Assembly: GCF_009734445.1 (NCBI RefSeq)
Contig: NZ_CP046457.1
Span: forward strand, 310,001 to 374,000
Direction: 5' to 3'
Length of the DNA stretch: 64,000 nucleotides
Source: Candidatus Syntrophocurvum alkaliphilum
GTDB lineage: Bacteria; Bacillota; Syntrophomonadia; Syntrophomonadales; Syntrophomonadaceae
Of the stretch, positions 54,921 to 61,694 are shown one piece after another (position 1 is the first letter of the stretch; the number at the start of each line of letters is the position of its first letter). A program made the position numbers and the translations under genes. The notes under the pieces were generated by a model. The model did not search any database. It saw only the letters and a list, made by a program, of their open reading frames with translations, and was not told the DNA's origin.

Positions 54921-55826
54921 ATGAATTTAAACATTAAAGATTTTGAAGATCAAATCAATACGAGAAGAAACTATGTTAACGAATGTCTCGAACAAAATTT
55001 ACCTCCTTTGAATTCTTATCCTCCCATAATTCATGAGGCAATGCATTATGCTGTATTTAATGGTGGCAAAAGATTAAGACCAATTATGGTGTTTGAGGGA
55101 GCTCTAATAGCTGGAATAGAAAAAGAAAAAGTAATACCTACTGCTTGTGCCTTGGAACTTATACACTCGTATTCTTTAGTACATGATGACTTACCTTCAA
55201 TGGATAATGATGATTTTAGGCGAGGAAAGCCCACTTGTCACAAAGTTTATGGTGAGGCTAATGCGATACTTACAGGAGATGCTTTACTAACTTATGCTTT
55301 TCAACTAATAGCTAATAATATAGCTATTAATGGTATTCAACCATTAAATGTTGTTAGAGTAATTAAAGAAATTTCTAGTGCTGCTGGTAGTGAAGGTATG
55401 ATAGGAGGTCAAGTAATTGATCTTGATTCTGAAGGAAAAAATATAAACTATGATACACTTAAGACTTTACATAGCTTAAAAACAGGAGAACTTTTCAGAG
55501 CTTCATTACGAGCCGGTGCTATACTTGGTGGATTAGATAATGAAAAATTAGATTATTTAACTACTTATGCCAACTATTTTGGATTAGCTTTTCAAATTAC
55601 TGATGATTTATTAGATGTTACGGGAGATCAAAAAACCTTAGGAAAGCCAGTAGGCAGTGATGATAAAAATAATAAAACTACTTATGTAAGCTTATTTGGA
55701 ATAGACAAAGCTAAAATGCTTGCTGAGGAAAGTGTAAATACTAGTATCGATAATTTGAAAGAATTTGGAAAAGAAGCTGATTTTTTACGTAATTTGGCGT
55801 ACTTTACTCTTGATAGAACAAAATAA
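54921..55826 (+). CDS. ispA: Polyprenyl (farnesyl/geranyl) diphosphate synthase IspA
   Basis: 301 residues. First aspartate motif LVHDDLPSMDNDDFRRGKPT, second motif QITDDLLDVTGD, plus FNGGKRLRPIM and KTGELFRAS. Two extra residues in the first motif (DDxxxxD) fit the bacterial farnesyl type. Makes C15 (or C10-20) prenyl diphosphate for quinones and wall lipids. Followed by OLE RNA and dxs, all isoprenoid-linked. Confidence 0.94.
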   Translation: MNLNIKDFEDQINTRRNYVNECLEQNLPPLNSYPPIIHEAMHYAVFNGGKRLRPIMVFEGALIAGIEKEKVIPTACALELIHSYSLVHDDLPSMDNDDFRRGKPTCHKVYGEANAILTGDALLTYAFQLIANNIAINGIQPLNVVRVIKEISSAAGSEGMIGGQVIDLDSEGKNINYDTLKTLHSLKTGELFRASLRAGAILGGLDNEKLDYLTTYANYFGLAFQITDDLLDVTGDQKTLGKPVGSDDKNNKTTYVSLFGIDKAKMLAEESVNTSIDNLKEFGKEADFLRNLAYFTLDRTK

Positions 55827-55933: not shown

Positions 55934-55942
55934 TGATATACT
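55934..55942 (+). promoter_or_regulatory. Extended -10 promoter element for OLE RNA
   Basis: TGATATACT fits the extended -10 consensus TGnTATAAT with one change. It predicts transcription from about 55949, a few bases before the 5' closing helix of the RNA. A good -35 is not seen, as is common for extended -10 promoters. Confidence 0.5.
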
Positions 55943-55949
55943 ATTTGTC

Positions 55950-56545
55950 TGATAGTTTGGCGAAAGGTTGCAGTATTCTAGTCAATCCTATCAATTTTGA
56001 AGACGGGCCTAAAAATCCGTCAAGGGCACATCGATGAAGCTTTTGGTGATGGCTTCTGACGCCCCGTTGGGGGTCATTGCTGGGAGTTAAGGGTGTTGGG
56101 GCACTCCGCAAGGGCATGCGGAAGATGACCCCTCCATCTGTGGAGGCTCAATATCTTTTTGATATTGAGAAAACCTACATTCTGGTGAAAGCTGGGTGTA
56201 GTGTAGCCTGCCTTGAGTGGTGCCGGCGGATAAGCGTTAATGAATTATAATTACTTTGGCCGGGACATTATAATTCTGCTTTGAAACCGTTTGCTGCAAA
56301 AGAGGCTAGAAATTGATTTGGGTTGTTGAGGAAAACTCCTAGACTGAATGTAATCACACATGGTTTATCGGGGATTAAAGTGCGTACTTAGTGGTAATCC
56401 AGCTCCATATTCGGTGACGATATGGAGTAGGCATAAAGGGAAACCGCCCATTTGGCAACAATTGGGTGTCCTACTGGGAAAACCTGCTGGACCTATGTCG
56501 CAGCGTTTACTCGATAAACAACCTTTCGCCACCACCCTTTTTTAT
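55950..56545 (+). ncRNA. ole: OLE RNA (ornate large extremophilic RNA)
   Basis: About 600 nt of clearly non-coding, GC-richer sequence between ispA and a membrane protein of OapA type, the known OLE position and length. A perfect 13-bp helix closes it: TGGCGAAAGGTTG (55958-55970) with CAACCTTTCGCCA (56519-56531). Many internal hairpins are visible: GACGG/CCGTC (56002-56021), CCTCCA/TGGAGG (56131-56146), CTCAATATC/GATATTGAG (56147-56169), AATTATAAT/ATTATAATT, CTCCATAT/ATATGGAG. OLE RNA forms a membrane-bound complex with OapA and protects against cold, short-chain alcohols and poor carbon or Mg stress in alkaliphilic bacilli. Identified by context, size and fold, not by model search. Confidence 0.88.
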
Positions 56546-56561
56546 GGGGGAATAGCAAAGT

Positions 56562-57122
56562 ATGAATTACATAACTAAAGGCAATATAATATCGGCCATA
56601 ATAGTAACGTTTCTAACTTTTTTTATAGCACTATTGTTAAGCATAGGGTCAGAAACCTTTATGCAGTCAATTGATAATCTTGGGGTAGCTTTTGCTTTCC
56701 TATTACTTATTATTTTTCTAGGCGTGTTTTTTGATACCATAGGTACAGCTGCAACTGCGTCTGACTTGCCGCCTTTTAATGCGAAGGCGGCTAAAAAAGT
56801 ATTTGGAGCAAAACAAGCCGTAAAAATTGCAAGAAATGCGGACAAGGTTGCTAATTACTTTAATGATGTTATGGGCGATATTGCTGGAACTTTAAGTGGA
56901 GCTATTGGTGCTGGAATAGTATTTAGCTTAATAAACACCTTTACCTTATTGGACAGTGTGTTAATGGGTGCTGTAATGACAAGTTTTATAGCTTCTTTAA
57001 CAGTTGGTGGTAAGGCAATAGGAAAGACGATTGCAGTAAACTATTCTAATGCTATTATTTTTAAAGTGGCTATTGTAATGGGATGGTTTGAAAAATTAAC
57101 GGGGATAGAATTACTTAATTAG
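56562..57122 (+). CDS. oapA: OLE-associated membrane protein OapA
   Basis: 186 residues, about 20 kDa. Three to four membrane helices: IISAIIVTFLTFFIALLLSI, NLGVAFAFLLLIIFLGVFFDTIG, IGAGIVFSLINTFTLLDSVLM and a C-terminal one. The DTIGTAATASDLPPFNAKAAKKVFGAKQAVKIARNADKVANYFNDVMGDIAG region is a basic amphipathic loop likely facing the cytosol, where RNA could bind. It directly follows the OLE RNA and precedes dxs, as in other OLE-carrying Firmicutes. GGGGGA ribosome site, ATG start. Confidence 0.88.
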   Translation: MNYITKGNIISAIIVTFLTFFIALLLSIGSETFMQSIDNLGVAFAFLLLIIFLGVFFDTIGTAATASDLPPFNAKAAKKVFGAKQAVKIARNADKVANYFNDVMGDIAGTLSGAIGAGIVFSLINTFTLLDSVLMGAVMTSFIASLTVGGKAIGKTIAVNYSNAIIFKVAIVMGWFEKLTGIELLN

Positions 57123-57132
57123 AAGGTGGATT

Positions 57133-59049
57133 ATGTATAAAATTTTAGACAAAGTAAACACACCCTCAGATATTAAAAAACTAAATATAACTCAAATGAA
57201 TTTGTTAGCTGATGATATTAGACAATTATTAGTGAAATCGGTATCTGAATGTGGTGGTCATTTGGCTCCAAATTTAGGTGTAGTTGAATTAACTATAGCA
57301 CTTCATTATGTGTTTAATACTCCAGAGGATAAAATTATTTGGGATGTCGGACATCAAAGTTATGTTCATAAAATCTTAACAGGAAGAAAAGAAAAAATGT
57401 CATCCCTAAGGCAATATGGAGGTTTAAGTGGTTTTCCAAAGTTTGAAGAATCTATACATGATTGTTTTAATACTGGTCACAGTAGTACATCGGTATCTGC
57501 AGCTGTTGGTATGGCTTTAGCAAGGGATATTCAAAGAAAAAAGCATTCCATAATTGCAGTATTAGGTGATGGGGCATTTACTGGTGGTATGGTTTATGAA
57601 GCCTTAAATCATGCAGGTCACGAAGCCAAAGATCTGATAGTAATTCTAAATGATAATGAAATGTCTATATCAAAAAATGTTGGGGCAATGTCAGGTTATC
57701 TAAATCGATTAAGAACTGATCCTTCCTATGCAAGAACAAAAGAAGAAATTGAATCTGTTTTAAACCGGATACCGGCAATAGGGCAAAATATTGCTAAAGC
57801 AGCTGGAAGATTTAAAGATACTGTCAAGTATCTTATGGTTCCAGGAGTTTTATTTGAAGAATTAGGTTTTTCTTATATAGGTCCTATAAATGGGCATAAT
57901 CTTGATGAATTATGTAATGTATTTTTAAATGCAAAAAAAATGAAGGGACCAATATTAATACATGCAATGACTCAAAAAGGAAAAGGTTATGGTCCGGCAT
58001 TAAAAAATCCTGATATTTTCCACGGTGTAGGTCCTTTTGATATACAGACTGGAAGTCAAGTTAATAAATCTATAAAAACTTATACCGAAGTATTTGGGGA
58101 ATATATTGCAAACAAGGCAGATCATAACAAGGATATAGTAGCAATAACAGCAGCTATGACATCGGGGACAGGTTTAAAGGAATTTGCACAAAAACATCCT
58201 GAAAGATTTTTTGACGTAGGAATCTGTGAGCAGCATGCAGTAACGATGGCAGCAGGCTTAGCGAGATCAGGACTAAAACCTGTAGTAAGTATTTATTCTA
58301 CATTTTTACAAAGATCTTATGATCAAATAATGCATGATGTTGCTTTACAGAACTTGCCTGTAATTTTTGCTATTGATCGAGCAGGATTGGTAGGAGAAGA
58401 TGGTGCAACTCATCATGGTGTATTTGACTTATCTTATTTAACTCATATACCAAACATGACAATTATGGCACCTTCAAATGAAAACGAACTAGTTAAGATG
58501 TTTAACAGTGCATTTGAATTAGATGGTCCTGTAGCTATTAGATATCCAAGGGGAGCAGGAGAAGGTGTTGATTTTGAACCAACAACTAATGAAGCTGTAG
58601 AGTTTGGTAAATCTAAAACTATATCTCAAGGGAAAGATTTAGCAATAATTGCTGTAGGTAGAGGGGTTAACTTAGGTAAAGAGGTATGTAGATTATTAAA
58701 AGAAAAAAATATTAAAGCTGAATTAGTTGATGCTCGATTTGTCAAACCTCTTGATGAGGAGAAAATCTTACAATTAGCCATAGAGTATCCGCATATAGTG
58801 ACTATAGAAGAAAATAGCATAATTGGTGGTTTTGGAAGTAGGGTATTAGATTTATTAGCGAGAGAGAAAATTAATAGTGATGTATTAACAATAGGTGTGC
58901 CAGATGATTTTACTGAACATGGAAATTTAAAAGTACTATTACAATATTTAAATATGGATCCGGAATCAATAACTGAAAAAATATTATATAGGTGGAATAA
59001 GCTTTTGAAAAATGATGCTTGGGAGTTGCTAAAATTTGGCAAAAATTAG
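57133..59049 (+). CDS. dxs: 1-Deoxy-D-xylulose-5-phosphate synthase
   Basis: 638 residues. Thiamine diphosphate enzyme that joins pyruvate and glyceraldehyde-3-phosphate, first step of the MEP isoprenoid pathway. GGHLAPNLGVVELTIALHYVF, the cofactor motif LGDGAFTGGMVYEALN...LNDNEMSIS, then the pyrimidine domain FDVGICEQHAVTMAAGLA and DRAGLVGEDGATHHG. ATG after AGAAGGTGG, ten bases after oapA. Overlaps tlyA by 14 bases. Confidence 0.96.
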   Translation: MYKILDKVNTPSDIKKLNITQMNLLADDIRQLLVKSVSECGGHLAPNLGVVELTIALHYVFNTPEDKIIWDVGHQSYVHKILTGRKEKMSSLRQYGGLSGFPKFEESIHDCFNTGHSSTSVSAAVGMALARDIQRKKHSIIAVLGDGAFTGGMVYEALNHAGHEAKDLIVILNDNEMSISKNVGAMSGYLNRLRTDPSYARTKEEIESVLNRIPAIGQNIAKAAGRFKDTVKYLMVPGVLFEELGFSYIGPINGHNLDELCNVFLNAKKMKGPILIHAMTQKGKGYGPALKNPDIFHGVGPFDIQTGSQVNKSIKTYTEVFGEYIANKADHNKDIVAITAAMTSGTGLKEFAQKHPERFFDVGICEQHAVTMAAGLARSGLKPVVSIYSTFLQRSYDQIMHDVALQNLPVIFAIDRAGLVGEDGATHHGVFDLSYLTHIPNMTIMAPSNENELVKMFNSAFELDGPVAIRYPRGAGEGVDFEPTTNEAVEFGKSKTISQGKDLAIIAVGRGVNLGKEVCRLLKEKNIKAELVDARFVKPLDEEKILQLAIEYPHIVTIEENSIIGGFGSRVLDLLAREKINSDVLTIGVPDDFTEHGNLKVLLQYLNMDPESITEKILYRWNKLLKNDAWELLKFGKN

Positions 59050-61241: not shown

Positions 61242-61694
61242 ATGAAAGCACGTAGACAATTTGCTATTATTAATGCTATTTCTAATAAAAGGATAGGCAC
61301 TCAGGAAGAATTACTAGAAGAATTAAAGCAAGCTGGGTTTAACGTTACACAAGCAACTATATCAAGAGATATAAAGGAATTGCAGTTAATTAAAATAGCG
61401 GATAACTATGGCTATAGATATGCACCACCAGAAACACAAGTGCAAACAAATCGTAATGAACGCATGCACAGGAGGTTTAAGGATTCGGTTGTAAATATTG
61501 ATTATAGTGAAAATATTATTGTAGTTAAAACTTTACCGGGAGCAGCACAATCGATTGCTCTTTTAATAGATTCTTCTGAAATCAAAAATATAATGGGTAC
61601 AGTTGCTGGAGATGATACCATATTTATTGCAGTTAAACCCAAACAAACAGTTAAAGAAGTAGCAAATTATTTTAATAATCTAACTATTGATTAA
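61242..61694 (+). CDS. argR: Arginine repressor ArgR/AhrC
   Basis: 150 residues. Winged helix with GTQEELLEELKQAGFNVTQATISRDIKELQLIK, then the hexamer domain with TLPGAAQSIALLIDSSEIKNIMGTVAGDDTIFIAV including the arginine-binding GTVAGDDT. ATG after TGGAGGT, ten bases from the previous stop. Its targets are not in this window. Confidence 0.96.
   Translation: MKARRQFAIINAISNKRIGTQEELLEELKQAGFNVTQATISRDIKELQLIKIADNYGYRYAPPETQVQTNRNERMHRRFKDSVVNIDYSENIIVVKTLPGAAQSIALLIDSSEIKNIMGTVAGDDTIFIAVKPKQTVKEVANYFNNLTID

Follow-up and report, generated by a model that had tools for sequence, protein, structure and literature searches.

The window analyzed here, 64,000 nt in length, spans positions 310001–374000 of the single 2,360,781-bp contig of the 'Candidatus Syntrophocurvum alkaliphilum' genome and carries a gene for OLE RNA (ole) followed by oapA (Table 1). 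The locus sits inside an exodeoxyribonuclease VII/isoprenoid gene cluster, and Pfam matches to both flanking genes confirmed the predicted position between ispA and dxs. A cmscan search of the whole window returned OLE RNA (RF01071) as the sole Rfam family above threshold, with a score of 491 bits (E = 4.9e-141; gathering score, 50 bits) and a match covering model positions 1–616 of 616, i.e., full length. We consider the identity of the locus as an OLE RNA gene plus oapA, put forward in the original prediction, near certain. The ∼600 nt of structured non-coding DNA described there is likewise borne out by this full-length match, by the stability of the fold (MFE z-score of −4.4, with 0 of 100 dinucleotide shuffles as stable) and by a G+C content of 46% for ole vs. 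32.5% for the genome. The host genome has one copy, and no OLE RNA was found in 14 control genomes. The host RNA has P1–P3, P9, the k-turn core, and both of the hairpin loops with GGNNAC that belong to the 3′ half. The k-turn, mapped in H. halodurans (PMC9723947), is retained here between J4a/5 and J5/6 as judged by sequence pattern only (CGAUGAAG with GUUAAGG), and most of its columns are ≥90% conserved.

Table 1. Features of the ole–oapA locus (window coordinates).
Feature	Position	Strand	Basis or remarks
ispA, polyprenyl synthetase, upstream neighbor	54921..55826	+	PF00348, E 1.4e-60
Extended −10 promoter element TGATATACT of ole	55934..55942	+	Sequence; conserved motif and position
ole gene, OLE RNA, full length	55949..56541	+	RF01071; 5′/3′ ends modeled, not mapped
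P1 closing helix, 5′ strand	55958..55970	+	Pairs with 56519–56531; 13 perfect pairs
P2 5′ side, CAGU-auu-CUAG	55971..55981	+	Pairs with 56339–56346; 8 bp
P3/P3.1 5′ strand, proposed membrane-spanning helix, 14 bp	55984..55998	+	Pairs with 56309–56324
k-turn core, J4a/5 side, CGAUGAAG	56032..56039	+	Putative OapC site by analogy; partner strand GUUAAGG 56086–56092
P3/P3.1 3′ strand	56309..56324	+	Covariation
P1 closing helix, 3′ strand	56519..56531	+	Pairs with 55958–55970
Shine-Dalgarno of oapA, GGGGG	56546..56550	+	Sequence
oapA, 186-aa CNNM-like membrane protein	56562..57122	+	Homology to protein after ole; CNNM 23.8 bits; Foldseek
dxs	57133..59049	+	PF13292, E 2.9e-124

The perfect 13-bp closing helix between the 5′ and 3′ ends, noted in the original prediction, pairs T55958–G55970 with C56519–A56531 and is Watson-Crick at every position in the host. 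Across a 47-sequence alignment of relatives, two-sided changes occurred in 11 of the 13 P1 pairs and in 13 of the 14 P3/P3.1 pairs, the latter with 94% of cells paired. The P2 pairing also fits, but its columns are near-invariant and covariation therefore gives no test of this helix. Tested jointly as named pairs, P1 (13 bp), P2 (8 bp), and P3/P3.1 (14 bp) had 90.4% of cells paired vs. 79.1% for shuffled and at most 50.0% for slid partners, a figure somewhat favored by the fact that the pairs were read from the window's own sequence. The joint covariation score was 0.403, compared with 0.208 (shuffled) and at most 0.177 (slid); the shuffled controls ignore relatedness, whereas the slid controls keep it. 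In the Rfam RF01071 consensus, neither the two ends of the RNA (5′ and 3′) nor the long-range P3 are paired; P1 and P3, missing in that model, covary across the 47 relatives. Because P1, P2, and P3 already belong to the published OLE model (PMC12265935), this covariation confirms membership in the class and is not new.

These helices also bear on whether the locus could be a decaying, non-functional remnant. Such loci do exist among relatives, such as one with an OLE match of 170 bits and an oapA remnant containing stops (G059), but the host RNA scores 491 bits and has intact P1 and P3 helices that include compensatory changes, the oapA reading frame is uninterrupted, and no partner is missing. 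Decay is already refuted at the sequence level, and we give it practically no chance. The low-scoring OLE match in G059 (L111:2150-2560) is partly masked as N, the oapA remnant after it lacks its N-terminal half and has several stops, and the genome contains a full CNNM protein, making it a candidate for recent loss of the OLE system. In another relative (G043:C176, L110), a 411-nt OLE match is aligned end to end and lies 30 nt from a contig end, which is probably truncation at the contig edge rather than a short variant.

OLE RNA was found in 50 of 61 genomes and is common in Syntrophomonadaceae; to call it rare, as the original prediction did, is too strong for the host's clade. No mention of Syntrophomonas was found in the OLE literature searched, although the published GTDB survey of 2,822 OLE genomes very probably includes Syntrophomonadaceae. 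A 115-nt segment with a 73% match to the OLE 5′ region was seen on a 504-kb Pusillibacter faecalis plasmid (NZ_AP023421.1:200854-200969), which on this resemblance possibly carries an OLE gene.

Across the 50 OLE loci, oapA lies directly 3′ of ole in 44, dxs follows ole within 1.5 kb in 47, and about 32 have ispA no more than 1.5 kb upstream (counted by hand, with a few loci ending at contig edges). The order ispA–ole–oapA–dxs is thus the usual state and no peculiarity of the host. Further downstream, argR is located at 61242–61694, 4 kb from oapA; ArgR is an unpublished candidate OLE partner (PMC12265935).

The close coupling of ole and oapA raises the question of whether the 600 nt are instead a long structured leader controlling oapA translation in cis, with no separate RNA. 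The two genes are nearly always adjacent, the OLE RNA ends about 20 nt before the oapA start and just before its Shine-Dalgarno sequence, and the 3′ CCACCC of OLE could, by complementarity, weakly pair with GGGGG. However, in two genomes of one genus (G016 and G032; loci L105 and L103) dxs comes directly after ole with no oapA between them and the oapA-like gene is elsewhere, yet the OLE RNAs still score 447–456 bits. The closing helix is complete before the Shine-Dalgarno sequence, and the ∼630-nt OLE RNA of H. halodurans is processed, abundant, and has its own phenotypes (PMC9723947). On these grounds we rejected control in cis, which we regard as very improbable. Both genomes lacking oapA next to ole have an oapA-sized CNNM-like gene on another contig, a natural separation of ole and oapA.

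The original prediction also noted a possible extended −10 promoter belonging to the RNA itself. The element TGATATACT, with one mismatch in its −10, lies 6–7 nt 5′ of the modeled RNA start, and no good −35 was seen upstream. Among 48 ole loci with at least 60 nt of upstream sequence, 39 have TGn plus at least five of six TATAAT positions (3.8 expected from shuffling), and 36 have TGn with the full TATAAT (0.4 expected). Control stretches further upstream contained the motif in 3 of 144 cases and a perfect one in none (0/144). In all but one of the 39 sites (38/39), the element starts 9–23 nt before the 5′ end of the OLE model. The conservation of this motif substantiates the proposed promoter, which a generic promoter scan did not pick because it has no −35. 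A terminator scan found no plus-strand terminator between ole and oapA. For H. halodurans, an ole promoter within a larger operon, plus processing, has been reported (PMC9723947).

The oapA start lies 30 nt past the closing helix and 21 nt past the end of the OLE model. Its product is 38–68% identical to the protein that follows ole in relatives (60–67% to most Syntrophomonadaceae OapA and 43–46% to Halanaerobium OapA), which together with the CNNM fold identifies it as OapA. The AlphaFold2 model (mean pLDDT 81.5) has five long helices, at residues 6–36, 40–66, 93–123, 129–160, and 162–180, in keeping with the multi-helix membrane protein with a basic loop that had been predicted; the loop, here PPFNAKAAKKVFGAKQAVK, has 6 K/R and 1 D/E in 27 residues, and its PFNAKAAKK motif is invariant in 20 sequences. 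The top five Foldseek matches of the model were all CNNM proteins (7m1t, 7m1u, 7cff; CNNM/CorB/CorC), with probabilities of 0.93–1.00 and E-values of 0.2–0.6. This fold is expected, given the published relation between OapA and CNNM (PMC11332333). No NCBIfam match was found for OapA and no relative by PDB sequence search; the relation to CNNM is visible only by predicted fold and as a weak Pfam match. With 23.8 bits against a Pfam CNNM cut-off of 28.4, a length of 186 aa, and no further domain, we rejected OapA as an MpfA (CNNM-CBS-CorC) protein. An OapA-like segment with 33% identity was also noted in a sequence labeled as a bacteriophage from human feces (MT835614.1:1025-1354), which may be host DNA.

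The genome was also examined for the other partners of the RNA. The Pfam KOW model yielded two proteins above cut-off, at the ribosomal L24 and NusG positions, plus one weak match, and missed OapB, which was found via gene order between map and infA and then confirmed by a match to PDB 7k9b ("OLE-associated protein B"; E = 1.7e-10 over 86 residues). OapC/YbxF, an L7Ae-like k-turn protein encoded in the order rpoC–ybxF–rpsL, matched 3v7e with E = 5.8e-16 (about 6e-16 for 3v7e/4lck) and keeps the Gly at position 15, a residue that in the H. halodurans protein cannot be changed to Asp without loss of OLE binding (PMC9723947). A second L7Ae-like protein, encoded at C1:619848 downstream of nusA (the YlxQ position), was considered but not accepted as OapC, since both the YbxF gene order and the strong YbxF match belong to the first one. 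A bS21 gene is present as well; with OapA, OapB, OapC, and bS21, the genome contains genes for all four partners with mapped sites. The full OLE ribonucleoprotein (RNP) core predicted for this organism, consisting of the RNA, OapA, OapB, and OapC, is therefore encoded in the complete genome.

The start of oapB is unusual. No in-frame ATG, GTG, or TTG occurs between the upstream stop and the conserved LGQIV motif (L059:3167-3484; C1 ∼2259166–2259483), and the Shine-Dalgarno sequence GGGGGTGG precedes an ATT. Scoring of 30 close oapB homologs, counting that of the host, gave 13 with no start other than ATT, ATA, or ATC at Shine-Dalgarno spacing; L086, which has a good ATG, was among them through a scoring artifact, leaving about 12 of 30. 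The other close homologs have TTG, GTG, or ATG, and 14 more distant ones have mostly ATG, GTG, or TTG, including four from an OLE-negative sister family. A non-standard start in so many genera is not explained by a single homopolymer error. The E. coli infC gene starts with AUU and is repressed by IF3. The GTC start of Streptomyces sigR offers a parallel for IF3 repression (PMC5472188). We suggest, as a long shot, that OapB supply in Syntrophomonadaceae could be set by translation-initiation fidelity, with IF3 repressing oapB genes started by AUU, AUA, or AUC; if true, such control would link a stress RNP to the state of translation.

No full-length CNNM/MpfA transporter was found in the host genome, where OapA is the only CNNM-like protein with E < 0.001. 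Across the 61 genomes, counted by hand, a CNNM match beyond OapA was present in 24 of 50 with OLE vs. 11 of 11 without detected OLE, one of the latter (G036) having only a partial match at a contig edge (Fisher p = 0.0015, with no correction for relatedness or for gaps in the assemblies). Several of the genomes without detected OLE are incomplete drafts, e.g., G026 with an OapA fragment at a contig edge; given these drafts and the uncorrected relatedness, the counts only agree with the published anticorrelation of OLE and MpfA. A full CNNM protein also occurs in roughly half of the relatives that carry OLE, and OLE/OapA and MpfA are thus not strict substitutes.

Our direct observations are the RNA and its helical pairings, the genes of its partners, the conservation of the promoter, and the absence of MpfA. 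The locus as a whole is, with high confidence, best explained by an intact oapA and an intact ole with its own promoter, with a membrane RNP as product. Transcription of ole would most likely start at the extended −10 promoter, with additional read-through from ispA, giving an RNA of ∼590 nt closed by P1, and oapA would be translated from the same transcripts. By analogy with OLE in H. halodurans and clostridia, from which dimerization, binding, membrane location, and the stress role are drawn, the RNA would dimerize and OapA dimers would dock it at the membrane near P3/P4; an RNA dimer, OapA docking, and a possibly membrane-spanning P3 have been described in other species (PMC12265935, PMC12286853). 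OapB would bind P12.2/P13, OapC the J4a/5–J5/6 k-turn, and bS21 P6, and by the same analogy it is likely that this standard membrane RNP forms in the host. The RNP would probably adapt growth and ion (Mg2+) homeostasis at the membrane to stress, in line with stress and Mg2+ phenotypes in other species (PMC11332333, PMC9723947), and OLE/OapA would stand here in the place that a CNNM/MpfA Mg2+ exporter has in other bacteria. Whether a Mg2+/CNNM-like role is the core role of OLE we judge to be evenly balanced. Alternatively, OLE RNA could be a ribozyme, e.g., the c-di-AMP synthase proposed by the Breaker laboratory, with OapA only as anchor. Its size, complexity, and invariant nucleotides resemble those of large ribozymes (PMC11332333), and many columns of our 47-sequence alignment are invariant too; no report of catalysis was found in the OLE literature searched, however, and the scaffold seen by cryo-EM is a dimer of the RNA that has protein pockets (PMC12286853). 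We consider catalysis doubtful and prefer the membrane RNP described above.

The host, strain B(2M) of the Syntrophomonadaceae, comes from a hypersaline soda lake and was grown at 2 M Na+ and pH 9.5 (PMC7005122), in agreement with the extreme niche that had been predicted; OLE alone does not predict an ethanol-rich one. It adds a closed-genome example of OLE RNA with OapA, OapB, OapC, and bS21 and no MpfA in a haloalkaliphilic syntroph. OLE without a full-length CNNM exporter provides a clean background for asking if CNNM-type Mg2+ handling has passed to OLE/OapA. The covariation in the 14-bp P3 can serve as data on the helix proposed to span the membrane. By itself, the host locus changes nothing in what is known: ole–oapA here is an ordinary, complete member of the published OLE class. 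It shares with OLE of H. halodurans, C. acetobutylicum, and C. botulinum (cryo-EM) the same full 616-position model, oapA after ole, and proximity to ispA/dxs. P7 and P8 are short, as in all Syntrophomonadaceae, whose OLE RNAs measure ∼582–600 nt vs. mostly 620–640 nt in more distant relatives, and P3/P3.1 has 14 bp vs. "typically 12" (PMC12265935), a difference that end-pair counting may explain. The 186-aa OapA differs in nothing notable from known OapA proteins, with which it shares position, size, membrane helices, the invariant basic loop, and weak CNNM (DUF21) similarity; its membrane fold resembles that of MpfA/CorB/CorC (7m1t, 7m1u, 7cff), from which it differs in having no CBS or CorC domains and in falling below the Pfam cut-off.
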